DNA of 64,000 nt from Antitrichia curtipendula (taxonomy: Eukaryota > Streptophyta > Bryopsida > Hypnales > Leucodontaceae), in contig OX579641.1 in the NCBI GenBank assembly GCA_951230915.1, forward strand, positions 310,001-374,000, written 5' to 3'. This document shows, piece after piece, positions 11,242 to 51,493 of this stretch. The notes beneath the pieces were generated by a model that worked only from the letters and a program-made list of their open reading frames with translations, was not told the DNA's origin and did no database searches. A program made the translations under genes and the position numbers. Every line of letters begins with the position of its first letter. Position 1 is the first letter of the stretch.

Positions 11242-11272
11242 TCAGAGCACGACGTGAGAATCACAGCAAGCT

Positions 11273-17687: not shown

Positions 17688-18049
17688 GTGGCCTCTGTCG
17701 CCTCCGGATGGTTTTCTCTTTCCCTCGATGAGAGTTTTGCTGCCTCCCGTTGTTTTCTCTCCCGATACTCTTCCTTTCCCCAACCTCACGCTGTTTTCTC
17801 TCCCGATGTTCCAGTCTTCGATCCTGATCCTTTGCGTTTTGTGCCGCTGGTCTTCCAGAGTGGACAACTTCCCTTGTCATCAGTGAGTGGAACTCGGCAT
17901 TGTTGGCGGCGAGGCGCGTTCGACATTGGAGGATTGCTGGAGCTGCAGGACATTGGAACTACTCCGGGAGCGCGTCCGACCTTGGAGGAGTTGGAGCAAA
18001 TAGTACTAGCTTTGCATTGTGCAGCGGGCTTGAAAGAGTTGTTGCGCAG
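17688..18049 (+). CDS. Possible first exon of the element A accessory gene
   Basis: An open frame runs into a good splice donor (GCGCAG|GTGAGT at 18049/18050) and ends in a helical segment, PTLEELEQIVLALHCAAGLKELLRR in outline. The base composition becomes GC-rich here, unlike the spacer on its left, as expected for a promoter and first exon. A second donor (GACAG|GTAAGT) lies at 18500/18501, so a short exon probably precedes it. I cannot fix the true start codon or how these exons join to 19380. Confidence 0.35.
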
Positions 18050-18520
18050 GTGAGTCAATGTCTTCGTTTGAGTGTCCCCACTTGCTCGCTTTTGGAAATG
18101 CATCACGGGATTTTTATTTTGTGCGTTGAGAACAATTGTGCTGTTAGCTTGTGCTATCTTGTTGGTAGCTTTGACATTGTGGACGTTGGACGGCATGTAG
18201 ATGTTATTAGTAGTTTCATTGAGTTTCGGAGAAATGCTACTCGCTTCCGTTCAAATTTGTCCCACCTCGTTCTTGTGCTCACTGGCGTGCAAGTTTAAGC
18301 TGTATCCATTGCGGTTCTTTGAGTTTGATACATAGTTCAAATTTATGGCTTCCTGATGTTGATCTTTGCCGTCATGTATCAGGAGTTGAGGCTGCGATTC
18401 GTACATTGAAGGTTGCTTTGTGGCCTTGACCACGTTGAAGACGAAGCATGGCAGGACCGTCATCACAACGCAGCGGAGGCCTTCCAATTTGGAATGACAG
18501 GTAAGTTCCTCTGAACCGTA

Positions 18521-19312
18521 TGTCGTGAGATCTCACCATACTACCATTACAGAGTTTTAGACAAGAACAGCAGAGGTTTTAGAATTAGCAGATTGAAGAA
18601 TGCACGATAATTACAAGTCTGTAGTTCAGAACCCACGGTTTTAAGGTTGTTAAAACCCTATAACCGCGCATCGTGGCGTGGCATCAACTAGAGAAATGCA
18701 TAAGGGGTCAGCCCTATCAGGAGATCCCACGATGAAGTATCCATTAGAGTAGTCCGACTGGGAAATTTGGGACAGTTAATCTGCATTGGATGTCCTGTAA
18801 ATGATTGTATTCACATTCAAATCATCGTGAGATCCCCTGATAACCAAGAGACATCAAAGAAATGAGGGAAATAAGATACTCAATAAGCTGAAAAAGCAAC
18901 CGCATAACCGTAAAATCTCACTCCTGAGACTGAAGCTGTAGAATAAAAGAGAGATTACCGTGAGATCTCACGATAACGGATCATGAGTGGTATCCCAGAA
19001 CACCAAAGCTTATTGTAGTCTGCCCAACCAGAGCTGCTCCCCTTATAGTGATTGCATCGTGTGATCCCCTGATAAGCAAGGTAGACCAACAGATCATGAA
19101 TAATAAGTAGTTCAGTCTAAACCCTAAACCCGGATGTATGAGTGAGGACACATCGTGAGATCTCACGATGACGACCAGTAATAGTCTAGCATCGTGAGAT
19201 CCCCTGATGATGTTCACGTAGGAACTCTCCAGTTCCATTCGAAGCCGCGGTGTCGTAATAATCTGTCATAGAAGCCCTACTGTAGAAGCAGACATCGTGT
19301 GATCTCACAATG
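18521..19312. repeat. Palindrome family A, dense cluster in the 5' introns of the accessory gene (8 copies)
   Basis: Copies start at 18521, 18715, 18823, 18956, 19055, 19151, 19190 and 19293. The one at 19151-19170 is the perfect CATCGTGAGATCTCACGATG; others combine a CATCGTGAGATC half with a CCCCTGATG half. They fill the intron that ends at the acceptor at 19379. Further intronic copies follow at 20765, 20887 and 22681. Confidence 0.85.
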
Positions 19313-20764
19313 ATTCCAGATGTGGACCTGCTATGATGACACTCTAATCTAACACTTTGTATGATATGAAATGCTGCAGTGGTGCACAGATGCAGGACAT
19401 TCCTGAGGACTTGAGCCCAAGGAAGCTTGCAGCCTTTGTCGACTACTGGATACATTCCTTCGAGTACATCGGGGAGCACAATCCGGCGGCAGTTTTCCGA
19501 TGCAACCTCAGCGTCACGGAGTGGTGGCTGGAGTTCGTGATAGAGGAAGGCAAGGCTCTCATTGTCCCGATGCTGAGACATCTCGACAGGGTGCACAAAC
19601 CAGCTGGGCTAAACGTCACGGAGATGCAGGGCCTTGATGGGCATACAGTTCTTGTCATTGTGGAGGAAAAGATACCGAACAGTGACCAGTTCATCACCTA
19701 CGGCTTTATCCTGGACTACGCTAAGCTCAACATGACGAAGTGCAAGTCCATGACAGACAGATCCTTGCTGTTCTGTAGAAGCACCTCATCACCCCATTGG
19801 AGTGTGGCTGAAATGAAATCGCAGTGGGATTTGATTGATGAGGATCGGATCGACGTTGGAGCTCCCGAGCGTCCAGTTGTTCACGGTACTCCTACCAAAC
19901 CATCTCCGAAGAAGAAGGCCAAGAAGCGCAAGTCAGCTGCCGGAGCTCCAGGTGACAAAGAGGTGGTAGAAGAAGCCACATCATCTGGGAAAAAGCAAAA
20001 GGTAGGGACCGAGTTATCTATTCACGTGTGCGTGAATATGGAAGAGAGCAAAATCAAGAAGCTGACAAGGGAGGACATGACTAAGATGAAGAAGTTGTAT
20101 GACACCCATTTCACGGACTTGTACCGATGGGGGAAGAAACCATTCTGCAACGTGGCCAGAGATCCCATCCGCGTACACTACGATTGCTTGCACGAGGCTC
20201 CCCCCGGAATTCTCGTGTACAGAGGGATAGAGCAAAGCCGCCTTGAAGGGATCACGAACAAGGCCAGAATCGCACCTGACTTTGACTCAGATAATAGAGT
20301 TATAACGGTGCTCCCTGTCGAGCGCGGTCCTTATGGGGACAAGAAGAAGGCCGACTTCTACAAAGAGGAGCCCGACAATGCGGTTTTCAGCACAAAGACT
20401 CAGTACTTCATTATAGGGGGACAACACACTGTGAGGGCGTACAGGAATTTGGTGAAAGACGGCGAGATAGCAGAGGTGGACAAGAAGTTAGCAACGACAT
20501 TCAACATAGTACCCATCTTCACCAAGAAGGAGAACTTCGATAACGTGTTGTTGCTTTCATGGGCCCTCAACCAAAATCTTGCTGGCGAACAGAAAGAGCA
20601 GTGCTTCACGAAGCAACTAATCAACACCAGGATCAAATGGAGAGACATGGGCAGCCCGCAACCAGCACTCTTCGGTAGGCACCACGGCAAGAAGTACCTG
20701 GTATGAGTGATGTCAAATGCCCTCATTTGGTCGGTCCACTGCTAAATGCAGTCTTCATTCTCAA

Positions 20765-20906
20765 TATCGTGGGATCCCCTGATGCTAATGTAGCTCTCAA
20801 TCTAGGATCATGAGTTCGCTTACTCTAGAATGAAATGTCCACTTCGATTGTCGAAATACACGGTGACTTCCTCCAAAATAGTATATCATCGTGAGATCCC
20901 CTAATG
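20765..20906. repeat. Palindrome family A copies in intron 20701-20965
   Basis: TATCGTGGGATCCCCTGATG at 20765 and CATCGTGAGATCCCCTAATG at 20887 both lie inside one intron of the accessory gene. A further near-copy, CATTGTGAGATCTCCGGATG, is at 22681-22700 inside intron 22657-22754. Almost every intron of this gene that is long enough carries at least one. Confidence 0.85.
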
Positions 20907-23511
20907 CTTCAATGCTGTACACGGTCTTGTACTAATAGTCCCATTGTGTTTCTGGTCTTGAGCAGGCATTTCATCCGTCCCTTGTAACAATCTTCACGGG
21001 TCAGAAGCCGAAAGACAACAAGGAGCTGCGGATTCCACTTGCCTTTCTCGAGGACGACAAGGATGTTAACAGATGGATTAAAATCGAGGAGAAGTACATG
21101 ACAGGGTTGCTGCCGGACACCGCAGGGTCAGTCAATGAGACCGGATCTCTGAAGCGCAAGCCCCTTACTGCAAACGATTTCAAGACGTTGTATGGGCTTC
21201 GAGCGGAAGACATCAACTACCTTGCAACTCTTGTGGAAGAGAAAAAAATTACCGTGAAGAGCGGCAAGGTCAAGACCCCGAAACCCCTCATGACTCTTGC
21301 TTCGGCAGGCGCCAAGGAGCGCCTCATTCGGGGATGAAGAACGAGTTGATGCTTCACTACATGAAGCATCCACTACCTAGCAAGAAGCCGGAGTACGAGC
21401 CATACTCCCCAACGGAGTGGGACGACTTCGCGAAGGAGAAGGGAATAGATCGTGAGCAAGTAGAGCTTTGGGTGAACAAAGCCATGGATTCGCATTCCGG
21501 ATTGAAGTGGCTGCTGGATCGCACAGCGGGGCTTAACAAGACGATCGACCTGGCTGACTGTCCGCAATTTGTGCGGGACATGTGGGAGGCGTACTTCAGT
21601 TCAACGGCGACCATTGGAGTGGAGGAGGCGCTTGAGAAGGGGTACTCCGAGAACTACATGTGCAGAGTCTTGGACGACCACTCCGGGAATCTCAGCAGTG
21701 TTCTGAGGAACCCCGACGTCGTTTTTTGGCGGGATGGAAGTAAGCCGCACATGTACTTCTGGTTTCTCTTTGAGCAGACGGATTTGGGATCACGGGCAAA
21801 ACTTCTGGAGGATCGAAGACTGAGACTATTCTTCGACGCTTTGGAGTGCTACAATCCATTCACGAAGCTTATCACAGCCCGGTCTGCCGCCGTACTCCTT
21901 ACTGATGCAGAGGGATACCACATGCTGTGTCTTCATTTGGAGAAGAGAAGACGTGAAAACGGCAACACTAGAGTGTGGGACCTGCACCTTGTCAATTACA
22001 TGACGGCACCAGAGGACGGATTCCCGGAGACTGTCGCCGGGGAGGGCTTCAACATCTTCGTTGTGTTCTGCTTCGGGTACAACAAGGAATATGGTTTGCA
22101 ATTGTCTTTCAAGACGTTCTTCCCGGGAGAATCGAAAAAGATGAAGCAAGTGTACAGGTCCAAAGAGCATCGGGATGACTTCACATATTGGAGACGGCAG
22201 AATGTACCGTACTTGAAGATTTCGACGGCCATGATCATCTTCTTCGAGCACGTATATGGCGACCTTATCCTCGTCAACATTAACGGTGGACCAGAGTTCA
22301 CATTCCTAGGAATGGTACGCAATTGATTGTCCCTCTCCTTTTCATCGCCTTCCAATATTATGTTGATCCCATAAACTAGCAGATACTGACGTACTCTTCT
22401 TCCCCATCTGCTGTAGAGTGCCAAAGTAAAAGTCCTCAAAGTTGTGAAATCCGCGGAGGCTGCATATGAAAGTCAAGCCTTTGCGAGACAAATGTGGGAC
22501 CACTTCCACTTGAAGCCGAAGCCACTGTCTGAGCACCAAGTATTGAACGACGAGGAGCAGGACTCGGATGAGGAGGAAGAAGCGTACAAGGAATTGGACA
22601 ATTCCGGTGAACGAGAACATGAAGGAGGAACCGGATTATTGCAGGGGAACAATAAGGTCAGTGTACACTTCTTGTTGAGCCATTGTGAGATCTCCGGATG
22701 CCTGGCAGTGCACATCAATGATATACGCTATCCCAATGGCTTACTGATTTCCAGTGTCGTTGGCATGTTCCGACGCAGGAGGGCTCTCTGCGAGGAAGGG
22801 GGCAGACGGGTGACTTCGAGACTCCGCCCTTGGTCAACAAGATAGAAAAGGAAGTTTGTCCAGCGTGGGAGAGCAGGAGGGAAAGGCATGGGAAGGGAGT
22901 TCGGAATTCACCAGCTGGTTCAGGTGCTGCTCGTCACTATAGTGAGTTGGAGGACGACGCTGCGGACGCGGCGCTTACTGACAAGAGAAAACTCCATAAG
23001 AAAGCCGTCAAGAACTCTTCGAAGTCAATCAGAGGTCCAGAGCAGTCGACGCAGGAGAAGCGGAAAAAACCAGAAATCAAGAAGAAGCTTTCTAATGTTC
23101 TGGAGAAGGTGAAGGACAAGGTAATCGTTAAGAAGAAGAGCAAGAGCACCGCAGTGCTAGCGGCGGAGAAGTTCTTGGAGGACGGAATCACCTCATCACC
23201 TGACGTGGAAGTAATTGAGAAGGACCGGTTTGTTCGTCGCTCAGATCCTGAGATGGTGGCAACCGGAAATCAACAGGGCAAGGGCTCCGGCGACGATGCA
23301 GTGGATTCGCCGTCACCGGAAGCGTCGAAAGCCGCGAAGACACTGGTTTCCTGCGCCTCTCGACCGTCACATTTAGAGTCCGCCGACAATACACTCTCGG
23401 GTGCTGAGCACCCTCAGATGTCTGATGCGGAGCAGGGAAATGGAGAGGGTCCGATCGTTCAGTCACCTGTGAAGGAGGCAGGACGACCGCAGGAGGAAGT
23501 TGCCCAGCCGT

Positions 23512-23849
23512 CATCGGGGGATCTCACGATGGCACAGGAGGACCCGGTCGTCATTGGGCAAGACGGTCAGTCACCTAGCCCTGCACTTGGCTGCACGCTG
23601 GAGCTTTCCGGCATACATGAAGAGGTGAATCAGTTGAGGACTGGAGAGTCTGAGCTGCTATCGAGTCCTGCAAGTGAGACGCGGATCCCAGGGAAGGAGG
23701 AATCAGAACTTGCAACCGGCACTTTGGTATCGGGTGAGATGCTAAAGGAGACACCGGTTATCTCCCATGATTATGTTACTTCTAGATGCAAGGGGAAGGG
23801 TATAGAGACGGTGGAGGAGAACCTTCCTTCATCGGGGGATCCCACGATA
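23512..23849. repeat. Palindrome family A copies translated within the accessory protein
   Basis: CATCGGGGGATCTCACGATG at 23512 and CATCGGGGGATCCCACGATA at 23830 are in the disordered linker exon and are read as PSSGDLTM and PSSGDPTI. Both use the GGGGG half-site variant and the same reading frame. The exonic copy in the DUF7869-type gene uses the same variant. Confidence 0.85.
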
Positions 23850-25076
23850 GTGCCTTTGGAAAAGCGCGTGCAGGTGGACATGAGTGTTGACGTTCGAAGG
23901 GATGCTATGACGGATTTGGACTTATTCAGTCCGTACCAGGTAGGGACTCGTCGAGGCTTGAGGAGGCATCTGTAGTAAACATCGCCCTCAAGGCAGCAGG
24001 TGAGGTTGCTCGAGAAAGCGATACAGGTGTGGACATGGGGTTTTTGGATGCTTTGCCCTTAGATGGGGCAGAGGTTCTGAAGGTCAGCAATTTTGATGTG
24101 TTCAAGGAGTTATGTCATTTCTCGAGTCTAAATTCATACCCCAATCGACGACTAGATAATCCGAAGTCAAAGCATCTGGAAGCCATAAGGCAAGCAAATC
24201 GTTTCATATACGAAGAGGTGTTTAACTGGAATCTTGAACAGGGGGCGCCGTCACAAGATGCTTTGAAAGTACCGGAGAGCGATGCGCCGAAGCAAAGGGG
24301 AAATGAGACGGAAGACGTCATAGGTGCTTGAGTGCTCTACTATTTCATTGTATCATATTTTGTTTTAAAGCTATGTCTCCTGAATTGACTCTAACTACAT
24401 GTTTCTTTTGTCTTTTGCAGAGCTTGGAATGCCTTCCTTGCCTGTGGCGAGTTCATCGAGAGAGGTAGTTTTTAGACGATACTCTGTGGTCCTTGACCTC
24501 AATGGGCTTCTTCTTCACAGATCCTTTGATGATCGTAATCGACGCAAGAATGTACCCCGTCCGGGTGTTGTAGAGTTCCTTGACTGGTTGCGTAGACATG
24601 CAGCCGTTGCGTTCTGGAGCAGCGCTTTGAGCCGGAATGTGAGGTCTCTACTGGATACCCTTCTGCAGCCCACCTCATTTAAAGCAGCGGACGTCATTGT
24701 TCTCTTGTAGGAGGATTGCAGGGTGTCGTCCTTTAGAGACTGCAACAATCTGGATAGGCCCTACTTCCTGAAGGATCTGACCACCTTCGCCACAATCGCG
24801 AATTTAAATTCCTTAGACAATGTTCTTCTAATTGATGACAGTCCGATTAAGAACCTCCTGAATGATCCATGCACTGTTGTTCATCCGAAAACATGGGCCG
24901 GTGATCTGAAGGACTACTTCTTGGAGGGGCAATTGAAGCCATGGCTTCAGGATCTGTTTCAGTCAAACGAGAGTGTCGTCTCCTACGTCTTGAACCATCC
25001 ACTTCCGGGTGGTCAGAGGTCGGAGATTAAGTTTTCCAGGCTGGCGAAGAATATTCTGGGCGGAATTCCTAAATAG

Positions 25077-27559
25077 GGCTGTTTTTTCATACTCGGTAGG
25101 CGTTATCAGGAGATCTCACGATGATATCTGGGACTTCTTTATAAGTAGAGATAGTGGGTGTCACAATATTGGTAGAACAGACTATAATCATAGTAAATGT
25201 ATCTTCTGTAACTAACTTCGACGCTTATGTTCATAACAGAGAAACTGGTTGACCTTATAAATTTACTTGTAATCTTCATAGTAATGCGATCATCATGATA
25301 TCTCACGATGCTTTCTTTTACTTCAGTGTTGTTGTAGTTGAATACCAAGCTGTTCTTGTTCTCTCTTTAAAGTACTCTATTTTCCGTCCCTTCTGGGAGT
25401 TACTGTTTTCTAATGTCTGTAATCGTTATGATGGGAATTTCCAGTGAATTCGCTAATGTGGTTGTTTATTTCTTAGTATGGCCGTCTGTTTTCCATGATC
25501 CTGTAATATGTAAATTATAATCCTTCGGGCAGACTCAGTTCATTAAATTTGCGTAGTTTTAGGATTTTCTCGGAAGAGATGTAGATGTCTGATTTGTCTC
25601 ACAAATGCTCTCCGTTTTATGAGTCCTTCATTATGTTTTTGTCAGATACTTCATTTACGCTCTCGGTATTCTATTACCCCTCTATCTTCTTTGGAATAAT
25701 TTTAATCGTATTTGAATTGTGGTAAGTTGGGGCCCCTAGCCTTCCCACTGCTGATTCTTCATCAGGAGATCTCCCGTTACATGATTCCTTATACATGTCA
25801 TATCTTTATTCTGAGTGCGTATGGTATCATTGTCTTGTTTCTTATTTCTTTCGCTTAGAATTCGTTCTTACAATATATATATTTTTTTCTTACCAACTTA
25901 TTCGTCCATCAGTAATATGGACACTGGTTCAGTTTGCTTCTACATAAACTCTTTGGATGTTTTTTTGTAATAAGCTCGTCCATTACCTCATCCGGAGATC
26001 TCCTGATGTTCGATAATTTTGCTTTTCGGGTACGGGTGTATTACTCTTTTACAGTCTGCATCACGGAATTTCACGATACAAATCTTCATGGTTTACCTCG
26101 GTCCGAATTCTTTTCCTCTGAGTCTACCACCACATGTGGAGGTAGTTTTTTAGTTCATTTTAGTTTATGAATGATCTACATTCTCCATAAGCAGTTCACT
26201 TAAGAATGGAGCCCTACTTCTCTCGATCATCTCGGAATTACTTTGAACCGATGGGAGCATAATTACACAAGTCTCACATTTTTCCCAAAGCTTCTGGGGG
26301 TCGTCGGAAGTACGAATTGTTTTCTGCGTTCTTCTTTATAATTTTATTAGTAAATCGGAATGCTTGATTACTGCAGTTCATGGAACACTGATCCCTTGTT
26401 CGGGTATGCTACAGACAGTTTCATAGGATATATTCCATCAGGAGATCTCTCGATAATTAAGGTCACATTTCCTTTCATTATAGGTATTGTGTCCTTGACT
26501 GTGGGCGGGTGTTGTTCTCTGCAAGCGGTGGTGATCCTGGTACTCACGGGTGCTCTCTGCAGTGGCGATTCTCCTTCGGATCTCCAGATTAATGTGAAGA
26601 CATTATCACGCTTCGAGGCGTTCATTAGTCTTCTGCTGACAACGACTTCCGTTTTCCTCTGGTCGAATATGCATTGGTCGTCATTGAAAGAGATTCTTGC
26701 ACGTTTTCTTCCACAAAAACTTATTTCGAGGTTATGGCGGATAATTTGTGGATGTGATTTTCATTGCAAGTTGCAACTCCATCATCCTCATTGTCGACAT
26801 GTATTGAAGACCCTCGTTAGTGATCCTCATGCCAGGGAGGTACTTAGGAATCGAACGGTTCATTTCCTTGATATAGATCCTATGAACATGCGGATGCATT
26901 TAATCCCCCCGGTCGTACATGTTAGAGATGACCCCAATAGCTTGTACAGTAGACTCTGAAATGCAAGCTAATTTCATATTCATTTCAGAGGCGCACGCCT
27001 AAGTATGCTTTGGTGTATCTTTACGAATGAATTATGGTGATTTCACCTTACTTCACTATACAATTGTCTCTATTTTGTAGAAATCTCTCTATTTGCATGC
27101 ATTGAACATGTCATCCTATATGCCTGTATAATGCTATGGGAATTTCATCTGGAGATCTCTTGATCTCCAATTCCCAATTTCAGTGATGGATTTCATACCT
27201 CCATTTTGTTGTGGATCTCAATGCTTCTAACGAAATAAACATGTAGACATGTTAGCATTTGAATTCACAATATTTACACATGGTCTACAATTTCCAGAAG
27301 TAAATTTGTGGACAAGTATTTCAATCTCTACATCATGAAATCCCTAGATGATGGATTTGTTTCAATGAATAAAACAGCAAAAAACGCACCCTAAACGCTT
27401 ACAATGCCAAAGCGCGTTCTGTTATATGGCTTTTAATATACATATGTGCTCAATTACCTATTATCCTAGCTACTTTCAACATCATGACGGTGATTTTTTC
27501 CATAATGTCGGTTGTAATCATCATAGGATATCTTCCAAAAAGTCCGAAATTGGGCCCAA
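25077..27559 (+). other. Right subterminal region of element A, with one unassigned open frame
   Basis: The region is AT-rich and holds six palindromes. One open frame of 199 codons, 26360-26959, contains hydrophobic segments (IIKVTFPFIIGIVSLTVGG; VVILVLTGALC) and then a Cys/His-rich stretch (CGCDFHCKLQLHHPHCRH). I do not recognise it and cannot say whether it is expressed. Confidence 0.4.
25104..27165. repeat. Palindrome family A, right-end series (6 copies)
   Basis: Copies start at 25104, 25291, 25760, 25989, 26436 and 27146. They become more degenerate toward the right terminus, and a very weak one lies near 27333. They mirror the left-end cluster at 1082-2352, so both subterminal regions of element A carry these sites. 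The one at 26436 falls inside the open frame 26360-26959 and reads as IPSGDLSI. Confidence 0.8.
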
Positions 27560-27589
27560 AGTCCAAAAGTAGTTAAATAGGGCATCATG
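27560..27589 (-). repeat. Right terminal inverted repeat of element A
   Basis: This is the partner of 1000-1029. Just inside it, AGTCCGAAATTGGGCCC at 27541-27557 makes a local foldback with the repeat. The left side has a similar but not identical AGTCC arrangement at 1036-1040. Confidence 0.7.
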
Positions 27590-29286
27590 ATGGAAGGAAG
27601 ACCAAATTCTATATTACAAAATTTTTACCTTACATTTGTGTCTTTATGTAGCAATTGCGAAATACATATACTCTTCTAAGTACAAAAGTGTAGTCTTCCC
27701 ATAAAACTGCCACATACTAAACCTGAAAAAGTACAAACTATATACTATATACGATAACAACAATCAGGCATAGTCCGATAGTGAGGTGCCTTCACTACAA
27801 GAAAATGGCCTGGTTTGCGACTAGGAAAAAATGACTGGCTGTCCGGAACAACTAAGAAATGACTGGACACTTTGTAATTGCACCGGCGGACCTCCTTTTT
27901 CAACATTTCCGTCATTTTGTAGTCACCATTGCGACTGTCGAATGTACAATTCGGGGGGTGCAGTTTTCATCCAATACTTTTCATTGTTTGAGACTGAGAC
28001 TATATGACGTAGATGGAGGCAACAACGGCCCAGTCACTAACGAGTTGGACGCTGTCATTTCTTGTAACTGCACTGACTGAGAAGTGACTGCAAAATGACT
28101 ATAAAAAGACAATGGAGCATCCTCTTTTCTTTATCGGCTTCTTCATGGAAAAAGATAAAAAAATTGTGGACATTGTATGGCAGTGCAGAAAAAAACTTTA
28201 TTGGTGACTCGACAGTAGACATTTGCGGCACTGCAGAATGAGTGAAGCGTGACTACCTACGTCTTCAAAGGTATATACTTAGGTAAAAGCTACTTACACT
28301 GAGCACAATACTGCACGTCCATGCATGAAAGCTATCTATTTTGAAGGTGGCCTTCCCTTTTGCGGGGTACACAACACTTTCTCATGTCCGGGTTGACGTA
28401 TGTTGTCTTAAGAAAGTATACTGAAAATGCAGTAAGTATTTATCAACGTTTTTGGCACTTTCATTTACAACATTCATGTGCCACACTTGAAGTTTTGCTC
28501 TAACATGGGATGAATGTGCTTAGTACCATCACAACATGTCTATCACTTGTGTAGAAAACAAGGCCACACCTTGCAAAAATGCTTAACTTTAATTGGAGTG
28601 CACTTGTACGCTCTGGTTACTGAATGCTCTAAAGCTTTGAATACAAGGGACGCGGCCTCAAAATCGTGGTGCTCGGTACAATGGCTTACATGCACAGTCG
28701 TATTCCATGCATAGGTATGTTGCAACTCCGGTGCCATTGGAAAAAACTGAATTCTGACTGTTGACAATCATTAAGAAGTCATCATGTAGTGGATCTGTAG
28801 TACAGATTATCTTGAACTTTGTCCTTCACTGTTTTCTTCTCAAACAGCCTAACAGACTCTCTCAACAATTTCACTACATGAATGCCTTCGAGCCCAGAGA
28901 ATCATGGCAAATGAAGATCACTAGAGATCCATTCATGTCACTGGTAATCTTCTGGAGCTAATAAATTCTCTTCCACTGATAGCTCAATGGCTCCCACTAA
29001 ATTAGTTGTCTTTATTGGAATTGGCCATCCTTGTGGAGCTGTCAACCCCATTGTCTCCTGTGTAGTGGTGATGAAGGCGTCCATGCAATCTACTACCTCA
29101 CGCCGGGCTCTTGCTTCTTTGCGTAATACAACTTTCCATCCGTTTGTCAGCAACATCGGAGAAAAAAACTTGTGTAGCTTGACTTGGAAAAATAAATGGT
29201 TCAGCTAAGCAAGGCAATTTATGGCAGAAGTTGACCATAAGAAAGCTTGAGTCATCCCTCAGGTATGTAGGGTTCCCTCGATTGTC

Positions 29287-32917: not shown

Positions 32918-32940
32918 CTTCTTTTCCTTAGACGTTGCAT

Positions 32941-37073: not shown

Positions 37074-37075
37074 CA

Positions 37076-38230: not shown

Positions 38231-38235
38231 AGGTT

Positions 38236-39218: not shown

Positions 39219-39231
39219 TAGTGGGGTGGGT

Positions 39232-39526
39232 GCAAAGTTGGTCATTATTAATGTCCAAGGAACATTGTTGGATAGAAGCTTCCTGCATTGTACGAACCCC
39301 AATAGCAGAGTACGTCCAAGCACAAGAACGAAGTCCAGTAGAGTAGTATTCAGACCTTGGCTAAGACAATTTTTAGTCCGTTGCTTCAATGACTTTAAAG
39401 TAGCATTTTGAGGCAGCAATAGCGCAGACTACATGGAGGATGTAGTTCCAACCATGCTAGACTAGTCAAAGGTTGGCAGCAGTGCGGGACCTTTATTTAC
39501 TTAGTCAGGTGAGGATATTGGGGACG
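39232..39526 (+). pseudogene. FCP1/HAD-like domain of the CACTA element, cut by an LTR insertion
   Basis: The plus frame reads KLVIINVQGTLLDR, then FRPWLRQFLVRCFNDFKVAF, a TGA (39409-39411), GSNSADYMEDVVPTMLD, a TAG (39463-39465), KVGSSAGPLFT and a TAG (39502-39504). It parallels the element A domain (VVLDLNGLLLHR; VAFWSSA), so the TGA stands where Trp is expected. The catalytic DxD of FCP1-like phosphatases is replaced by N-V-Q, so it would be inactive. The frame stops where the LTR begins at 39527; the missing C-terminal half, with the DDSP-type motif, should resume after the second LTR, outside the window. Confidence 0.65.
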
Positions 39527-40035
39527 TGTGAGCTCCCAATTTGTCACTTGGGACTCGTAGAATTATTTTTTGGAAATTTGCAATTTAAAGTTAAGAAAAA
39601 TATACAAAAAGCCATAAAAAGAGTGTAGAACCAAAATAGGGCTGTAACATACCCATTATAGTAGTTGGTCTAGATTTGTGTTTAAACTTAGAATCCCACC
39701 AAATCTGGCCCAAAAATAGGTAGAAAGAGCGAAATAGTTAGAGTTGGAGGATTCAAGTTACATAGGCCCAAAAGGGCGAAATCCCATCATGAAGGTGACA
39801 ATTCATGGCTAAGTTGGTCCGAGGGATCCACAACGAGGCCACTAGGTCGAGTCCTAGAGTTAGGTTTAGAAATTCCTCAAACCTCGATTATTAGCATGTA
39901 GGAGCCACTAACGCATGACCGGGCCCGTGGAGAAATCTACAGCCCAAGGAGGGTGTCCTAGGATAAATCCCATGCCAAGAGTCCAACGACGAAATCGATT
40001 TGCCAAGATTCCTCTATCCGCAAAAGATTCCCGCA

Positions 40036-40045
40036 CCATCGATAA
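40036..40045 (+). repeat. Left 10-bp target-site duplication of element B
   Basis: CCATCGATAA is repeated exactly at 55987-55996. A 9-10 bp duplication is typical of Mutator-like elements and agrees with the encoded transposase. Confidence 0.9.
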
Positions 40046-40107
40046 CAAGAATGCTAGAATGTGAGCAGTGAGCAGTGAGCAGTGCGGTGTGAGCAGTGAG
40101 CAAAGAG
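40046..40107 (+). repeat. Left terminal inverted repeat of element B with GTGAGCA heptamers
   Basis: After GCTAGAATG come about six GTGAGCA-type heptamers (40061-40103), one of them altered to GTGCGGT. The array pairs with its inverse at the right end. The terminal repeat is short in unique sequence and mostly made of these heptamers. Confidence 0.85.
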
Positions 40108-40441
40108 AATTTTTTTTGAGTTGGATGCAGTACCCTATGACCACGGAATTCAGGTGATTAAAAGTGTGTAATTTGGTAAAAACTAGCCCCCATATCTGTG
40201 GAAAAAAACAAAATAATTGTTGGCAAAAAGGGAGATTCGAAATAGTAGAAATCATTATTTCCAAAAAGTCGACCGGAAGTGGATGGATGATAAATTGGTA
40301 AAGATGAATGTGGATGAATGTGGATTAATAAGGATGAATGAAATATTCCCCCCCAAAAAATGTAAATATGTGTGGGACTTGATTGTTGCTTTTTTTTTAC
40401 TGTTTAGGTCTGAAATTGCAAGTAAATTATGACGTCCAGAA

Positions 40442-40550
40442 GGCCTCCTCGGTACCGAGGAGGCCTTTTGCCCTACACAAAAACTTTGAGGGCCAAAAGG
40501 CCTCCTCGGTACCAAGGAGGCCTTTCGGCCCTCAAAGTTTTTGTGTGAAT
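40442..40550. repeat. Palindrome family B, left-end pair forming a long hairpin
   Basis: Two 24-bp palindromes with GGCCTCCTCGG arms lie at 40442-40465 and 40499-40522. The second is embedded in a longer inverted repeat: CACAAAAACTTTGAGGGCC before it and GGCCCTCAAAGTTTTTGTGTG after it. The DNA or RNA could therefore form a stem of nearly 40 bp. It lies about 400 bp inside the left end and about 530 bp past the end of the minus-strand gene, where it could also act in 3' end formation. Confidence 0.85.
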
Positions 40551-43500
40551 TTCAATGTTTTGTTTTTCAATAGTGAAATTCTTTTAGGAGCATAAACACA
40601 ATATCCTCAAAACAAGTTTCTATTTTTTGGGCATAAATAAGGTTGTCATGAGGTGCGTAATCCTATCAAAAAATATTTGAAGATCCAGACTTTCAAAAAA
40701 AATTTGCTACAACCCCAGGGTCATTATTTCAGCCTCCAATGTGTTGAGGGGTTACTAAACATTTTGCAATACATGCAGCGACACAAATTGGTGGTAAACA
40801 ATACAAAAGAACCAAGTAGACACAAAGAGATATGACTTAATGTAATGTATGAATTTCTAAAAACACCAAAAAGGCATTATGATGATGGTATATAAGAGAG
40901 GTGGCGAATGATATCAAGCATATTGAAAGAATCCATTATCAGTGAAGTTCTAAAGACATGGAAGCAATGAAAGACAATTAGACAAGATAAAGTACCAAAA
41001 TAAAGTGTAGTGGCCCTTTTAGTCTCACTACATGGAATTATGGAAAGCATACAATGACAAGAGTCATGACTTAGAAACATATGTTGAACTGCTACCACAC
41101 ACAAAAGATGCATCACTCAAAGTGGCACTAAATCCGCTCTTAGTGCTGCTAGTAACAACAGTAACCTCTTTTGCCTCATAGTCAATGTACCTACGCACAT
41201 TCGGATCATACCGAGGTAAAGTACTGACTTTTGAAGGACTATCCACGTTCGCTAGGTCAATGGCCATTGCCTCAATATAACATGGTAATGACAACGGACT
41301 TGGAGGACTTGGAATTAAGTCTACCAACCTGTAGAGATGGAAAACAATGAAAAGAAATTAGTTTTTATTGTTGAAGTAGATAAAATTGAAATAGATGCAA
41401 ATCAAAAAAGGGTAGAACTTACGTATACATGCGATTCTTCGCAATCCTCTTCGTAGCTCTTTCCATTGGGGTGCCTTTTGAAGCTGGTGGTGCCTTCCGT
41501 TTTTTCCCCATGGAGCCCTCGGAGGAAACCGCAGTGCAGAGTGGAACTAGAACAACCTCAAAGATTTCTTCATCGGACTTGAGAGCAATGAGGTGACGTC
41601 CACTTCGACGGCAAGCGTGAACGTTGGAGCCTAGAAAAAAACAAGTACGTCGCATTAAAACCAAAGCAAATTGGTGAAAGGTAGAAACTCACAAAAACTA
41701 AAAACAAATCAAGAGTGAAGATTTTACCAGTTGATGCATTGCAATCCAACACTACATCCCCAGGTTTGGAAAAGCTCTCAATAAGAAGTTGCAAAAGAAC
41801 TGGGTCTTTTTCACGAGCTCCTCTCCACATATTATCCCTGTTCTTCAAGGCCGTAACTGAATTAGTGTAGTTGTAAAGGGCACCTTGCCCCACAATATCA
41901 GTGCCCAAATTACTGAGTTCCCGGTTGACTTCAATAGAAAAGTTAGACTGAACTGGATTGTCAAAGTATGACTCCTTCACGTAAAGGATAATCCAAAATC
42001 GCTTAGTCTAAAAAACAAATATAAACATATTAGCAGGAGAAAAATCAGTAACGTCCCCATGAAGTAAAGACACAGAATGCGCTGAAGTTCAAGAAGAACA
42101 GTGAATAACTGGTGAATACAGAAACACCATCTTCAAAGAAAAGTCTCAAATGGTACAAAATTGACCCAATAATGAAATGCGAAGGATAAAAGGATAAAAG
42201 GATAAATTGATGGAATAGAAAGGCTTTAAACTATTATCGTGCGAGTGTGGTCTCTGTATGATGTGAGTACCATATCGTTGATGCCCCACCAATCATACAA
42301 CGTGGTTAAACCGTAAGCTTCTGCAAGAGCATCCGTTGCTAGCCGGACATCTGGAATATCAGGGTGGAAAAGCATAACCGCCCCATCATCTTGGAGAGTA
42401 TTACAAGCCACCTCAAAAATGGATTCTGGCCAATCCTCTGCTAATGTATTCCATGTAGGGACCGAAGATCCCATATCTGGGACTCAAAGACCATCTGGCA
42501 CATCTGCCACGATAAGATCAAGACAAGCCTCTCTCTTGGGCACACCGCAAGGAGTTGTTGATGACCACGACCCACCTATGCAATTACCAACAGAATGAAG
42601 ACTATATATAGAACATATATTGGCACACGATAAAGAATATGACGAAGAATTTAAGGAAATACAGAAGAGCATTAGAGCCAAACCTTCTGAGCAAATGTCA
42701 AAAGTTGTGAGAACTCAGGGGAAGGTTTCTGGTTCTTGACCATGAATTGCATGATAGAGTGAACAGAAGTCTTCAACAGGAGGACTTTGGCATCTACTCC
42801 ATGTGTGTCAATGCGTTTAGCAGTCTTCTCATAAAGCTGAGATGGTGCAAAGATCTCCGTGGACATTGAAAGCGATTCTGGAAGACAATGTGTTGAATTA
42901 CTAAACATGCCAGGGTTAATGGGGGCCACATAAATAGTCTCCGAATCACTCACAACAACTACTGCATCATCCTTACCCTTGCCTTTTGAACTACTATCTG
43001 AGGCCTTCTTGGTCTCAATTGCCTTCTTGGTCTCAGTTGTCTTCTTTGAACCTTTAATCATTCTACCTTTCTTGGTAGTTTTCTTCAACTCTGCCTCGGA
43101 TGGGGGATCCTCACTCATATCTGCATCAGAATCTTCCGTAGGCATTGGGGTTGAGGATGCCTGAAGAGCCTTCTCAAATTCTTCTTCGCTCGGAACGAAC
43201 TTCTTCGGGCATTCCAAATACCATGGACATGCTGTGTGCTCGATAGTATTGAATCCACGTACCTGTCCAGGTGTAAACATATATGCATCCTTCAATGTTT
43301 TCTCCAACCAACCTCCAAATAATTTTGGAAAACACTTCTCGATTGCTTTCTTTCCCAAGAGCTCCCTTTTGAAGTACCTTCAGCAGAGATAAATGCAAAG
43401 TTAGATAATAATATGATAATTATGATCCTCTGGGAATTTAAATACTTGCCATATCAAGTAAGCTATTGAAGGTATCGTAGGACAAAACAATCGGTTTACT

Positions 43501-43716
43501 CTGTCGACCATTATCGACGTCTAAAATGCAATACGTCAAGGTCAATATATAAAGATCAAGTTCATAAATGGAATTAAATTATAAAATCAATCCAACTAAA
43601 AATGGATATTGAATACCAAAACAACTAAAAAACTGTCAATTCTTTGAAAAATTAAATCCTAAAAAATTCCCGTTGTTCAGCCAAGCCAAGCAATATGTTA
43701 TGTAAGTCACCAAAAC

Positions 43717-43740
43717 AGCCTCCTCGGTGCCAAGGAGGCC
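43717..43740. repeat. Palindrome family B copy in an intron
   Basis: AGCCTCCTCGG...AGGAGGCC lies in the intron between exons 44076-43841 and 43377-42684 of the accessory gene. One base of the right arm differs (CCAAGG for CCGAGG). Confidence 0.85.
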
Positions 43741-46428
43741 ATATCATATCCAGCTTATGCCTTATGCCCAATTCTAACATTTAATCCACAACACTTGGGT
43801 CGTATGAAATTTCAGTTGAGAAGGTCAGTAAAAAATGTACCGGTACTGAAGACGTTGCATTGCTCTCTTAGCTCCATCTTGAGAAAGAAATGGCTTTGAC
43901 CGATAGTATTCTCCTGACTTTCGGAAAAAGAAAAAGAAAGCTTGATCCCACAGTATAATGCGGTATTTCTCAATGTACTCCTCAATTTCGTCCACATCAT
44001 CTCTCTCTTTCCAATCCACTATAATCCCCTCTGACTTCATTGTCTCGTTCACAGCTTGAACGGTAACAAACTCCAACTACAAGCATGATTAATAAACAAA
44101 TTAGTTGCATGACAAGTACAAGTACCTCGATGTACTGTTTAGCGGCTTAGATTGGGCAATTAGCAGCTGAGATCGGAACATCTCAAATCAAATACCTCAC
44201 CTGAGCCCAGAAAGCAGCCTTTGTTAACCAGGCTTCCAGTTTGTCATTTGTGACACCAATTGCTGGAAATTGCAACGCTACATGATTCATATCTCCGGAG
44301 TTCCACCAATTCAACCACTTTGTCTTGAACTGGGGTTCCACAATTGTAGTTGAAATCCTCTGGAGCTTCTCAAGTGACATCTCAGGCTTCTCAAACTGGC
44401 TCCAATGGTAATATATTTGGAATTCATATATAATCGACTCATTGGTTTAAAGACAATAACTTATTTGACTTTATAAATTTGGTAAAGGGCTCACATCGTT
44501 AAGGAGACAAGACTTTATTTTCTAAATTATGGAGTCAAGTTCCAACAATGACAATTTTATGGATAAAATATTGACTATGATATGAAGCTACAAGATTCTA
44601 ATACAGACAACAACATCGCTTGTTATTAGTTGGAGTCTAGGTAGAGAGGAAAGCGACACTTCTATGAAGACTAATAGAAATACAGAGAGTGCGCATTCAC
44701 CATGGGTTAGGGTACACAATAAGTTGAGTGAATATGAGGGCAAAGTAATTATCTCACCGCTTCCAGGAACTTTGGGCCATGCTTGGGATTGGCCACGCTT
44801 ATCATTTTGTCAAACTCTGTTCGATAGGACTTCACTCTTGCCTGTGAGGCACTTTCCATTGCATCGTGTATGCCACGAGCAGTGCGGTCTGTCTTTGCAG
44901 TCTTCTCCATGTATAGACAAGCAGCTTCATCTGCAGCGGCGGAGACATCTTGCTGCACATATCACGTCACAAATAAGACTACGCTTCATAAATTACGAAA
45001 GAAAATTCAACTTATCATATTGACGTGAAAACAAGTCTTACCCGATTCAAGAATTTGATGAAGACATCTGAAGTCAACGGATACCATGGGTATGGTTTTG
45101 GTCTTGTCTCACAAGCTCTGTACTCATCTGCTGTAAGTAGCTCTTTGAAATCCGATAATCTCAAAACCCCATACGAGCTTATGCGATGCAGTTTATGTAC
45201 CAGGTTTGTTTTCACATGTGCATTCTCTGTAGACTTGAAAAATAATCCAAAGTAATTAGAGGTTCACTCAAAATCGATTCTACAAACTCAAGTTAGAAGA
45301 TAATTTATACAAACCTACCTATTTACGTCGTTCATTGCATTCAAAAGAATGCTAGTACTGCCCTTTGAAGCCAGGAGAATAGAGTCCACTGAAAAATGCC
45401 ATTCTGCCTCATCTGAATGCAGACGTGAGATATAATTACTCCAAGCTTGAAACCTATAGTTTCCATCCCAAACAAAGAACATATGGCCGGAAAGTGATGA
45501 CAAGTGGATATCATCAGTTAATTGTCGCTCAAATGCTTCATTCTCTTTAACCCAATGCACGTCCCAAGTCCCCATAATTTCTTCAGTAAGAAGCTGAGAT
45601 TTTCTAGTATCATCTGATACTGATACGTAGAACACCCTGTCCCCTTCGCGATAGCCATGGACAAACTCCGCCTCTAAACGCCGAACATTGGAGTGAAGAA
45701 TTGGTCGGACCAACGGCAGCGGAATCATTCTACAAAGTGGAATTTTCAAGCGAGAGGATTCGACTAGCTTGAACCGCAGTTCTTGGATTATTGAAATGGA
45801 ATCAAGCTTTCCCTTTACGCGGAAGGCATTCTCTGCCTCACCAATGCTGAGTCCAGCCATCATATCGTTTGCTAAACTCTCCTCATTTCCTGTCGTGGTC
45901 TCATCACCCACAGTCAACACAACATGAGATTCCACTACACCGTCTTTCTGGATCTCCTCTGACGTCCCATTACCTTTGAAGCCAAAGTCCTCCTCTTCGA
46001 CATTGTGCATCGACTCAAGCTGCGGAGCACAGTCGTCATCGGCATTCAGCAACGACACAAATTTGCGCTCCTTGTTCCCGCCCTCCATCTGCCAAATGCA
46101 TCGAAGCATCCAATTAGGACACTGTCCATTACATTGACATCTTTATACCCCAAGCTGAAATACTACAAAAAGAAGCTTACATCATAATCGTCGCCCAAAG
46201 AAAGAGATTTGTATGCAGCAACTTCTTCAGCGCTCATCTACAAAATAACCAAATATTAACGTTAAATATGAAAAACCTAATCTCTGAAGTATCATTCGAT
46301 TCATAGGATAGAATGATGGTAATTAATCCTTGGATTTCAAAATTGCGTTTTCATTGATTGAGTCGTCGCAAGCGGCCATTAGGTATCATCACCATTGAAA
46401 CGCACAAACACAATATCAGCTTGAAAAA

Positions 46429-48152
46429 GCTTCTTCGGTGCCGAAGAGGACAGCAGAGAGGTCCACAAAAAGAAACAACAACAATACGATTGGGATTCAA
46501 TAAAAATATTCGTTAATGGAGCTTGAAAACAAAACGCTAATGGCACAAGAACTGCCCCAATTCATGAACCCGATAGCCAGTTCTCAGGATTCACCATGTA
46601 ATCCATGTTACAGCATCACCACGGTGATCCTTGTTGAACGTCCTCGGTGCCGAGAACGGTATTCAAGCTCTCCCCAATTTATTCCAATAAAGCTGCCAAC
46701 TGTATATCGACTTCCTCCATGTCACGTGAATGCACTGAAATTGTTAATCACACCTCGTTCACTAGTTGATACATGCACTCCATTAGTCCGTATCTGCATC
46801 ACACAAAGAATCTCTAATCTAGTTTCTATCCATTCCTAACAGGACACTAGTTTGAAATAATTTTGTCATCCTTTGTATGGGCACCTCGGTGCCGAGGAGG
46901 AACAAATTGGAATCTCAGGACTCTTAGAAGCCTCCGTAAGGCTCTCAGAAGACTCCCACAAGAATCTCAGAAGCCTCCGCAAGGCCTCCTCGGTGCCGAG
47001 GAGGACCCCATGATAACTTCTGAATATCAAGAAGCCTGTCCTACGAATTGTCACTTGATCGGAGAAATTCCGGATAGCTCCCTTAGGGTTCCTCGATGCC
47101 GAGGAGGTTTGAATCGATACTGCAGATTTCAAGTGAACTGCCTGCTTACCTCGTGAACTGATGAACTGACTGCCTTGAAAATCCCCGACCTGCCTGCTTT
47201 GTGAATTCCTAAACTGCCTGCCTTGCGCATTGGTAAACTCATCACTCGAAGACTCCGCCAGGGTTCCTTGGCACCGAAGAGGGTCGACCTGGTACCTTGA
47301 AACCGCAGGAAGGTCCGGGGAAAGCTATAACAATCAGAGGAAGTCGACACGATTCTAACCAATACACTCCGAGTCCAGGCGGGCCGGAATAATTCATGAA
47401 ATCTCAGTTAGGGATCCTTGGTGCCGAGGAGGTCAAATCTTATCCCCAGTCAAGCTCAAGAATTCCAACTAAAAGTGATTACAGTACCAGCGATAGGATC
47501 TCGATTCGAATGATTACAGAACTCGGACCAGTGATATCATCTCGACCATGAACCCGGACCAGTGCTAGGATCCCGATACCATCAATTGATCAGAACTCGG
47601 ACCCCTGACCAATGATACTAGCGGTTTAAAAGAACTCGGATTCGAACTCGATTGAAGAACGAAGACCAGTGACAAGATTGCGATACCAGCAATCCAATCT
47701 CAAAGCCTTCACAGTACTAGAAATTTCCAAAACCTGACCAGCGATTACAGAACTCGGACAATTGATTACACAACAGATCTGAAGATTACACTAAACTAGA
47801 ATTTTGAATAGCAAGCACCGCACTGGAATACCAAAATCATCACACCGCAAGCTTGACTATAGGAGCTTGCACGGGAGCTCCAAAATCCTTGAATGCTGCG
47901 TTGCAGGCATAATCCCTAACGAAATCAGGATGGCCACACTAACAGCCTCGTTGCACCTGTTGGACAGCTCGAGGAAACTAACCAAAAAGATCGGGAACGT
48001 CGACCTCGGACTGGATTCTATCGTGTAACAAACTCTTTTTATCCGTCGGAAACTTGCACTGGTGTCGATCCTTCCCCGTCACAGAGAAGCACTTGTGTCG
48101 CTCTGGACGAATCAAGCAAGTCCTCGCAAGCGTTCTTCGGTGCCGAGCAGGA
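46429..48152. repeat. Palindrome family B, intron-1 cluster (8 copies)
   Basis: Copies lie at about 46429, 46638, 46881, 46982, 47088, 47262, 47412 and 48131, all in the 3.9 kb first intron of the accessory gene. The core is CCTCGGTGCCGAGG with variants such as CTTCGGTGCCGAAG, where both arms change together and keep the symmetry. Compensated changes argue that the palindrome itself is maintained or was copied after change. Confidence 0.85.
47420..47800. repeat. Short-period irregular repeats within intron 1
   Basis: Phrases such as GATTACAGAACTCGGACCAG and ACCAGTGATA recur with variation over about 350 bases. A simpler CTGCCTGCCTTG pattern precedes it at 47140-47230. No coding signal or known element is apparent. 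Confidence 0.5.
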
Positions 48153-48359
48153 CCAAATTCATAACTTTCACCTCGTGGAACCCTAACTTCTCTCCGCAAA
48201 AATGATGTATTAACCCCAAGCTCGTCGAAGGTGGTCACTAGAGGTTTTCTAGGATTCAAAGCAGAAGATGCATGGTATAATTTTTTGGATTTAGTAACCC
48301 TAAGTGTAGGACATGTCACGAGCAATAGGTCATAATCTAGAAAGTATTCCCAAGGATGT

Positions 48360-50128
48360 ATAAACTAACGTCTGGTGTTTGCTGACCTCTCGCGCGAGAA
48401 TCTAACATCGTAAGCAGCTTAAGCAACACTGACCAGGAGAAATAGAAAATTTGAGCAGCTCAAAGATCACTGACAAGGAAGAACTGGACAATCAAGACGA
48501 ACGGAAACAAGAGGAGTAACGGCTACCTCGGACTGGTTTCTTTCACCCACAGGGCTCCTTCCCCGTCGCAGAAACGGACTGGTTTTGCTGTTCATTGGTG
48601 ACCCCGCATGCATAATTTCTTCGTGCAAGTGTCGCAGTCCCTCTTGAGCTCGCTCTCAAGTATCGCAGTATCTCTCGAGGAACGGTAACTCTGTTCGGAA
48701 TACAATCCACGCTGAATAGCTTAACACCTCCGATGGTCACCGGCACCGAAAGGAACCCTACCTCGTTCTTGGTGGACACCAATAACCGGAAGGTCTCAAG
48801 GTTCTATCCTCAAATCGCAACCGGTATAAGCTACACTAATAGCTAACTTTATTATTTTTACATTGAAAACTAAGAGATAAACGAATAATATTGTTCTTCG
48901 CAGTGCCTAAGGTTTTTGAACGGTCATTGGACGCTAATAAATTATGAATTATAATGATATCAATGATTTTCATCTAAATTCTCAATATAAACACATGGCT
49001 ACATTAAGACCATTGATGAAAAAAATTTGATGCTACATTTCCATCAGAAATATTTGATGGCTACAGTAACATCTTACACAAATGCGAAAATATTGATGTC
49101 TCAATTTATTTGAATTTCAAATTTCTAACCAAGCCTGAAGATCTTGTTGCACACTAGTACATAAAGCTGTAAAGTTTTTTGGACATTTGACCCTATGGAT
49201 TCAAAAATATAAGCTTCTGCAGAGTGAAAATTAACTTTTCTATTTTGCTCAGTATTATCCAATGCCTTTGATTATGAATTGTTGCCCAAAAGATTCACAA
49301 TCATTTTTTAATTTAGAAAACTAGCATATTTAGCATTCTTTTACTCATGTCTGTAAGACATTTCAATTCCAAATAAGATGCTCGACTTACTCAAAAACCA
49401 AGAATATCCTAAACTTTCTACTATGAAACCCAAATGAGATGTCTGAAGGCTTTCTAGATAGTCAAAAATATAATCGATGGGAATAAAATACTATTAATAA
49501 GAGTTCTAATCCCTTATGCTGTTTTAACTGCCCTCCGTCCATTGTTTTGATCTTATTTGGGCGTAACTTCTGCCGCATAAAACCGATTGTGAAAGCAATT
49601 ATATGACTATAAAGCTTATGACTACTAAACGCATTTGTCCCTCGAGGTAACAACGTTTCTTTAGGGGTTGAGCCCTTCATTCCAAGTGCCCCTACGGATT
49701 ACAATTATGTATGTTATTTCCGCAATTTTCATTCCCGCCATTGGATCAAAAGTGAAGGCATTTTCATTACGTCATCTCCAAATAGTTTAAAAGTAAGATC
49801 CTACGGTTAAATTTTCAATATGATCACTTTCTCAGTTTTGATCAAGGAAGCACAGTTTCCTCGACAATGGCTACGGATTTAATGGTTACAATCACGTCAG
49901 TCTTTTATAATCACCACTTAAATCTAGGGTTATCGTTCAGGGCTTATATCATTAACACTATCCAATCTCTACCCAGCCTCTATAGGAGCACATTATCCAT
50001 AATATCTATTGAGAAACGCAAATATATCAAAATAATAGGCTGCCAGACAAGGATTTCCCGAGCAATACTTTTCACCTATAACTTGTATAACCAAAACATA
50101 AAAGGGAACAATGGATTTTAAGACTTAC
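48360..50128. other. AT-rich part of intron 1
   Basis: The stretch has no open frame with recognisable motifs. Family B palindromes stop at 48152. Near 48540-48790 short minus-strand open stretches exist but show no domain. Confidence 0.5.
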
Positions 50129-50485
50129 ATGACGAATTTGGTCCGACGCACTTCCTGGAAAACTGGATAATTGAGTCAATGATTCGAACTCCTCTTCTTC
50201 AGCACCATTGAATTGCCCTCTTTCATCTTCAGAGTGAACTAAGGAATCATACTGAGATTCTATCAAATCGTTCTTGGAATTGTCATTCAGCCTAGCACTC
50301 TCGATCTTGCCCCCCTCCACTTCGGCTCCAGTACCCAACAATTCAAACGTAGCAGCCAAAGATGTTCCTCTCCCTTCTCCAAACCTGGTCTGATAACGTC
50401 TGGCCATTCTAGACCTCTGAAGTTGTTTCCTAGTGGAAAACCTGAGACCTCCCTTCCGCGTCTTTCTTTTTGGCTCTTCTCGCAT

Positions 50486-51491: not shown

Positions 51492-51493
51492 TT

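Follow-up and report, generated by a model that had tools for sequence, protein, structure and literature searches.

Two families of giant transposons with divergent accessory genes and family-specific palindromes in the moss Antitrichia curtipendula

To our knowledge, the silencing escape of large plant DNA transposons has been worked out in detail mainly for the VANDAL elements. The VANC motifs are described as dense in introns and other non-coding regions and as differing between related elements (PMC5735166, in the portion of the paper drawn on here). Moreover, genes encoding TET/JBP dioxygenases are carried by diverse fungal DNA transposons (PMC12730594, likewise in the portion drawn on). 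Here we analyzed 64,000 nucleotides of the moss Antitrichia curtipendula (assembly GCA_951230915.1, contig OX579641.1, positions 310,001 to 374,000), hereafter the window, in which three elements, A, C and B, are present in a nested arrangement with a retroelement and a repeat resembling a long terminal repeat (LTR). Elements A and B, giant transposons unrelated to each other, have two genes each, and both carry dispersed palindromes that cluster upstream of the second, divergently transcribed gene, here called the accessory gene. With a probability of roughly 0.5, we regard the accessory proteins as catalytically altered factors that bind the palindromes of their own element and act in a VANC-like anti-silencing manner with other domains.

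Dispersed palindromes and gene pairing in the A and B families

Element A (1000..27589) contains 31 dispersed 20-bp sites between 1301 and 27350 (no strand assigned) with the consensus YATCRKGRGATCYCMYGATR. Allowing up to 5 mismatches to CATCGTGAGATCTCACGATG, all window sites (31/31) are located inside A and none in the other 37 kb, the retroelement nested in A being free of them, while ten runs of a Markov null gave 0–1 sites per window. At up to 6 mismatches, 36 sites are found inside A and one outside (54461). The sites form clusters at 6045–6664, past the point where the transposase region starts, and at 18521–19312, upstream of the accessory gene; further sites lie in introns at 20765, 20887 and 22681, and in total 28/31 sites of the window copy are intronic or intergenic (up to 5 mismatches). 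This distribution is seen also in other copies. Across nine A-type copies (V1 and V2 dropped, the linker exon not scored as coding), the scored coding exons, 29,981 bp in sum, are free of sites; the remaining sequence within the gene (17,395 bp) contains 32 and the upstream region (9,900 bp) 64. A viral contig scan with the A palindrome gave nothing useful.

The palindrome differs between the subfamilies of A. The outer CATC...GATG is kept and the interior varies, and 9 of 11 copies fall into four dominant types, i.e., GTGAGATCTCAC in the window copy, V5, V6 and V8, GTGAGTTCCCAC in V4, TGGAGATCTCCA in V7, V9 and V10, and TGGAGTGATCCA in V3. The dominant palindrome of each subfamily is repeated within the copy.

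Element B (40046..55986) carries a palindrome of its own. Twelve dispersed CCTCGGNNCCGAGG sites (up to 2 mismatches, no strand assigned) are distributed over 40447..55229, accounting for 12 of the 13 such sites in the window; the thirteenth is located at 35358 in element C. Eight of them cluster at 46433–48148 just upstream of the B accessory gene, and none lies in the accessory exons or in the span of the gene of its transposase, which is of the Mutator-like element (MULE) type. In the 2.4 kb upstream of the accessory gene, at least one site is present in 16/17 B-type loci and at least two in 14/17, compared to the controls, 2 sites in 85 runs with shuffled sequences and a single site in A-type flanks totalling 200 kb. 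Locus-specific variants are CCTCGTTNACGAGG (L042), TCTCGGCCCCGAGG (L046), CCTTGGCACCGAGG (L039) and CCTCGGCGCCGAGG (L048). Both families share with VANC-type systems a family-specific motif dense in the non-coding parts of the element. For element C, of which a single element was inspected, near-perfect palindromes were not seen.

The accessory genes of both families are conserved and multi-copy, and their pairing with transposase genes was followed in the genome (400,189,583 bases, 303 contigs). A degenerate pattern of the A motif FIIGGQHTV has 163 genomic matches, its reversed control none. The pairing count covers 100 of 163 A-type places and the DUF7869 exons among the matches listed; a listed DUF7869 exon lies within 30 kb of 63/100 A-type genes, in 63/63 cases upstream and divergent, whereas random placement gave a mean of 3.2. 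The value of 63/100 is a lower bound, as V6 was counted as unpaired although a DUF7869 gene is present in the flanking sequence fetched with it. Similarly, a listed MULE exon was found within 15 kb of 67/146 B-type genes, upstream and divergent in 67/67, compared to 1.1 in the null; viewed from the transposase, a listed B exon lies near 68/99 MULE exons, and 67 of these pairs are divergent. The first-pass annotation had proposed a genome-wide search for the same architecture beside other transposase types; for the A-type genes, a listed MULE exon was found within 30 kb of one gene in 100, and its orientation is not divergent. Because DUF7869 is the partner of the A-type genes and MULE exons are the partners of the B-type genes, with this one A-type gene near a MULE exon, the A-type and B-type elements are, as far as listed, two fixed two-gene designs and not one hopping module.

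The proteins themselves were also compared. Searches of A against B proteins by blastp and tblastn gave nothing significant. Aligning 5 A sequences with one B sequence by hhalign resulted in an E-value of 0.3, inside the range of 30 shuffled controls; when 15 A-type sequences were set against 17 of the B type, the two ParB-like boxes were aligned, but with an E-value of 0.14 obtained with no shuffles run. The C and A proteins have only the NIF-like domain in common (31% identity over 49 columns).

Accessory proteins with altered domains

A divergent second gene that does not encode a known transposase is present in each of A, B and C, as the first-pass annotation had described, and the seven peptide motifs quoted there are all present, each at a single place in a six-frame translation of the window. 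The accessory gene of element A (19366..25075, plus strand; hand-built gene model, kin proteins P0001–P0006) comprises the exons 19366–20700, 20966–21334, 21335–22314, 22417–22656, 22755–~23939, ~24002–24323 and 24421–25075, with an ambiguous exon 5/6 junction and a frameshift near the 21334/21335 boundary. The window copy has an in-frame TAG at 24708 in the NIF exon. A 71-nt intron at 21269–21339 was considered and rejected; since the kin protein P0005 runs through this stretch without an intron, a frameshift near 21333 is the more plausible explanation. Among 10 A-type copies fetched, homologous exons 1–3 are present in 10/10 and the NIF exon in 9/10, stop-free in 5/9.

The ParB-like box of A (20407..20442, plus strand) reads FIIGGQHTVRAY. 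IIGG.HTV.A is invariant in 5 aligned A-type sequences, in the form IIGGQHTV or IIGGMHTV and more broadly YIIGG.HTV. The AlphaFold model of A has pLDDT (predicted local distance difference test) values below 50 in the ParB-like stretch (residues 246–445), and it contains a confident beta-rich N-terminal domain at residues ~20–130 (window 19423–19755) that is conserved in kin, has no Pfam match and, in a Foldseek search with the A model, no match at 0.001. By tblastn, the ParB-like region of P0001 gave one weak match each in phage (E 3) and plasmid (E 0.3) sequences; the sole plasmid match, at 2501–2818 of the Rhizobium gallicum plasmid entry L005, is unannotated and shows 28% identity over 60%. 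A viral contig scan with A exon 3 and a phage search with the A exons gave nothing useful.

Downstream of this box, a methyltransferase-like motif was suggested at 22258..22296 (plus strand, GDLILVNINGGPE), and a similar VN.NGGPE.T.LG is present in most kin covering that stretch. The proposed methyltransferase of A could not be confirmed, as neither the A protein nor its kin gave a methyltransferase profile match (Pfam, PHROG, NCBIfam), and the structure model of the region has a pLDDT of 33.5, too low to judge the fold. The FCP1-like end of A is well supported: the NIF domain at 24486..24970 (plus strand) matches Pfam NIF with 1.5e-15 and 57.6 bits, above the cut-off, with an X placed at the stop. 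The second catalytic aspartate is replaced; 8/10 A-type sequences read DLNG here, and the other two, V1 and V2, read LEPSG. Genes of the V1/V2 type, carrying LEPSG, are located near contig ends (C1:39619, 89609; C5:23297; C7:45260; C8:25709144; and similar) and have no promoter palindromes and no listed DUF7869 neighbour; they may have been domesticated, or may have multiplied close to the ends of chromosomes.

The accessory gene of element B (41065..46237, minus strand) was modelled by hand with 11 exons, 1128 codons and GT-AG junctions (46237–46181, 46088–45327, 45233–45042, 44952–44758, 44395–44201, 44076–43841, 43377–42684, 42534–42232, 42007–41728, 41630–41423 and 41328–41065) and has one in-frame stop, a TGA at 42484. 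An extra exon at 43520–43450 was rejected, the direct splice from 43841 to 43377 keeping a single frame. Exon 2 has at least 150 listed genomic matches with identities down to 40%, many of them stop-free. A homologue search with the spliced B protein gave 0 matches at 0.001 and a viral contig scan with exon 2 nothing useful. A DGNHR-type box is typical of the ParB/Srx superfamily, and the box of B (45441..45482, minus strand, MFFVWDGNYRFQAW) belongs to a family box of the typical form FF[VI][CW]DGNHR..AW, in which GNHR is kept in 15/17 aligned members; the window copy has GNYR instead, and L043 has GNHH.

The methyltransferase predicted for B is supported by Pfam N6_N4_Mtase with 1e-6 and 29.3 bits, above the curated cut-off of 26.7. 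The domain (41423..42534, minus strand) has motif IV, DVPDG, preceding motif I. PHROG and NCBIfam methyltransferase models match as well, the NCBIfam ones far under their own cut-offs, and a tblastn search with the domain finds phage adenine methyltransferases with 4e-7 at best and 91% of the query covered. Motif IV reads DVPDG, NVPDG, DIPEG or DLSEG in 4/4 members (window copy and kin L053–L055), compared to DPPYG, DLPYG (two) and DLPFG in four aligned phage enzymes, so that the aromatic residue of the catalytic motif IV is present in 0/4 B members.

The claim of ParB-like sequence in A and B stood as far as conserved motifs are concerned, whereas no Pfam ParB match was obtained with A and 4 of its kin or with B and 8 sequences of its family. 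Sub-threshold Pfam matches in these scans were DUF6551 (0.029) and DUF1015 (0.045, 0.064), which we take to be ParB-related. Unrelated families score equally well or better (0.0082, 0.015, 0.022), and A also matches RRS1 with 0.00095.

The second gene of element C (36162..39526, plus strand) consists of the pieces 36162–37022, 38233–38619, 38601–39215 and a NIF-like start at 39229–39465, which presumably form one gene. Its proposed FCP1-like end is supported by the sister copy L052, an open frame of 545 codons with a full-length NIF match (4e-9, 36.8 bits, above the cut-off), and not by the truncated window fragment, which reaches 0.0016 and 18.6 bits against a cut-off of 21.8 and carries an in-frame TGA at 39409 in the NIF-like start. 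The canonical NIF catalytic motif is DxDx(T/V). In the alignments and open reading frames (ORFs), the NIF domains of A and C both deviate from it; the C motif is NVQG in the window and NVHG, NVHA or NVHV in the sister copies L050–L052.

Nested elements of the window

Element A has a length of ~26.6 kb including its nested retroelement (strand not assigned) and ends in a perfect 30/30 inverted repeat (1000–1029 and 27560–27589); no clear target-site duplication was seen in the flanks inspected. The transposase region (2549..5841, minus strand) consists of the DUF7869 ORF (3026–3862; Pfam 9.5e-39) and the ORFs 2549–3025, 3863–4339 and 4639–5841. The retroelement (7695..14250, minus strand) is bounded by direct repeats of 1236 bp (7695–8930 and 13015–14250, 99.8% identical) and contains a reverse transcriptase ORF (9106–11241) and a second ORF (11273–12934). 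Its RVT_1 match is weak (0.0024, below the cut-off).

The CACTA-type element C (27793..39526, strand not assigned) has a likely left end, CACTACAAGAAAATGG, at 27793 and a tnp2 transposase exon at 31111..31848 (minus strand, Pfam Transposase_21 9.8e-51). Its right end was searched for in the window and not found; a candidate at 62498 matches in 12/13 bases but was rejected, as it has neither a target-site duplication nor a cluster of C-repeat motifs nearby. Element C and its second gene are apparently cut at 39526 by the LTR-like repeat (39527..40045, plus strand), which is interrupted by element B and continues at 55987; a second copy is located at 63344–64000 (83.7% identity over 540 columns, 82.5% over 126), and its nature as an LTR appears probable.

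Element B (15,941 bp, strand not assigned) is flanked by the 10-bp target-site duplication CCATCGATAA (40036–40045 and 55987–55996), and a paralogous empty site exists at 63874. It has inverted repeats at its termini, which with the 10-bp duplication give the combination expected for a MULE (~9–11 bp duplication and terminal inverted repeats). Heptamer arrays of GTGAGCA and its complement lie within these repeats (40061–40102 and 55925–55969). The MULE-like transposase region (51440..55117, plus strand; at least 100 genomic matches listed) is so named after the first-pass annotation, by its motifs and by the 10-bp duplication. The mobilisation genes given earlier for A and C are thus supported by DUF7869 and tnp2; for B the duplication agrees with a MULE, and a Pfam transposase match was absent from the element B exons, scanned piecewise. 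Beyond these elements, the window contains a duplication of ~1 kb (59665–60693 and 61042–62069, 83% identical) and two diverged tandem arrays with a unit of ~24–26 nt (57659–57979 and 58975–59134). Rfam and tRNA scans of the window gave nothing useful.

Possible roles of the accessory proteins and known systems

Dispersed, mostly non-coding, family-specific sites that vary by subfamily are the expected mark of a co-evolving, element-encoded DNA-binding protein. The palindromes may be bound by the accessory protein, as judged from the sequences, and anti-silencing as the outcome is suggested by analogy. The accessory protein, encoded divergently from the transposase, would recognise the dispersed palindromes of its own family, binding as a dimer and probably via its ParB-like part, and would coat or mark the element, its own promoter first. 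Such coating could lift host silencing or autoregulate the element, as VANC does for VANDAL elements. Going by the aligned sequences, catalytic residues are replaced wherever they were compared, i.e., in motif IV of B and in the NIF domains of A and C, and the methyltransferase-like and phosphatase-like parts may serve as binding scaffolds and not as enzymes. The analogy to anti-silencing genes drawn in the first-pass annotation is reasonable and is strengthened by the element-specific palindromes. A more specific and rather unlikely version is an independently evolved parS-like system, in which the ParB-like protein would load at palindromes, spread and shield the element from silencing, with inactive domains as scaffolds and with palindrome and protein co-diversifying so that sister families are insulated from each other.

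Several observations weigh against binding by the accessory protein. The linker exon of A holds two sites and one of the transposase-region ORFs holds one (up to 5 mismatches). The palindrome type tracks protein similarity only loosely: the palindrome of V6 is that of the window copy, although the two share only 50% identity, and V4 is nearest to V3 in protein, yet has another half-site. Furthermore, the window copy, V3, V4, V5, V6 and V8 hold some sites best matching another type, with minor-type sites making up 3/17 in the window flank. V1 and V2 keep the accessory gene and have no promoter sites, and the B-type locus L047 is without upstream sites. The ParB-like identity of the boxes in A and B is suggested by motif conservation, to which the profile searches and the low-confidence model of A add no support. 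Finally, the in-frame stops in A and B and the frameshift in A show that the window copies of both accessory genes are degenerate.

Moreover, the transposase, linked to the palindromes in both families, is a possible binder as well. The palindromes would then correspond to transposase-binding sites, comparable to subterminal repeats, and the accessory protein would act otherwise, e.g., in target choice or excision support. We consider this possible but doubtful: both transposase types, DUF7869 and MULE-like, occur in linkage with the palindrome-bearing elements of their own family, and several of the A sites are found close to either end (1301, 2293, 25104–27331), but the densest sites are found upstream of and inside the accessory gene outside its coding exons and not at the element ends, and the single element C has a transposase with neither a ParB-like gene nor near-perfect palindromes seen. 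Because of their ParB-like boxes the accessory proteins are the better candidate binders, with the linked transposase remaining the rival. Sites between the coding exons of the accessory gene and at other places in the element argue likewise against palindromes acting as operators for autoregulation only, with the accessory protein regulating the two genes of the element and leaving silencing unaffected; although the clusters upstream of the A and B accessory genes and beyond the start of the A transposase region would fit such operators, we regard this as quite improbable. The first-pass annotation had proposed a shared accessory module transferred between transposons of unrelated type, for which TET/JBP in fungal transposons offers a parallel. 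NIF-like ends in both A and C, a ParB-like box in both A and B and reported transfers of this kind (PMC12730594, in the portion of the paper used) speak for it. This proposal appears improbable to us, as the A and B proteins are without significant similarity, each family is paired with its own transposase type among the places listed, a methyltransferase was not detected in A and C shares only the NIF-like domain.

The binding of own palindromes by catalytically altered accessory proteins thus remains our preferred reading. The two further families have unrelated transposases and accessory proteins without detectable homology, and each has a conserved second gene and element-specific palindromes diversifying by subfamily. 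If the accessory proteins bind these palindromes, this would represent convergent evolution of sequence-specific self-recognition, would offer many natural protein-site pairs for studies of specificity and would mean that altered DNA methyltransferase and phosphatase domains have been reused without catalysis.

As a comparison with known enzymes, the B domain matches the beta-class N6/N4 DNA methyltransferases (CcrM, DpnA, phage enzymes) including motif IV before motif I, but its motif IV is without the aromatic residue of the four aligned phage enzymes. Similarly, A and the C sister copies share the NIF domain with the FCP1/SCP/TIM50 phosphatases, but in place of DxDx(T/V) A has DLNG or LEPSG, C has NVQG and the C sisters have NVHG, NVHA or NVHV. 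With bacterial ParB-parS the B family shares the DGNHR box, and repeated palindromic sites are a further likeness; in contrast, A and B have no ParB profile match, and CTP binding and partition are known for neither from sequence. The TET/JBP genes are alike in being epigenetics-related accessory genes on unrelated DNA transposon superfamilies, yet they represent one enzyme family over many superfamilies (PMC12730594, in the portion seen), whereas A and B are separate families with replaced catalytic motifs. Among the titles and beginnings of abstracts listed in searches of open-access literature, none describes this architecture or these palindromes; one of the papers listed, on an Ectocarpus transposon, mentions ParB once (PMC12477816). 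The closest likeness in design is to VANC of the Arabidopsis VANDAL MULEs, an element-encoded accessory gene with a family-specific motif in non-coding regions and introns that varies between relatives; its motifs are 8–9 nt long and in the same orientation, compared to the palindromes of ~14–20 bp found here, and ParB-like, methyltransferase and NIF parts, present here, are not mentioned for VANC in the portion of the paper used (PMC5735166). We place the A and B families with a known kind of system, transposon accessory genes with element-specific target motifs.

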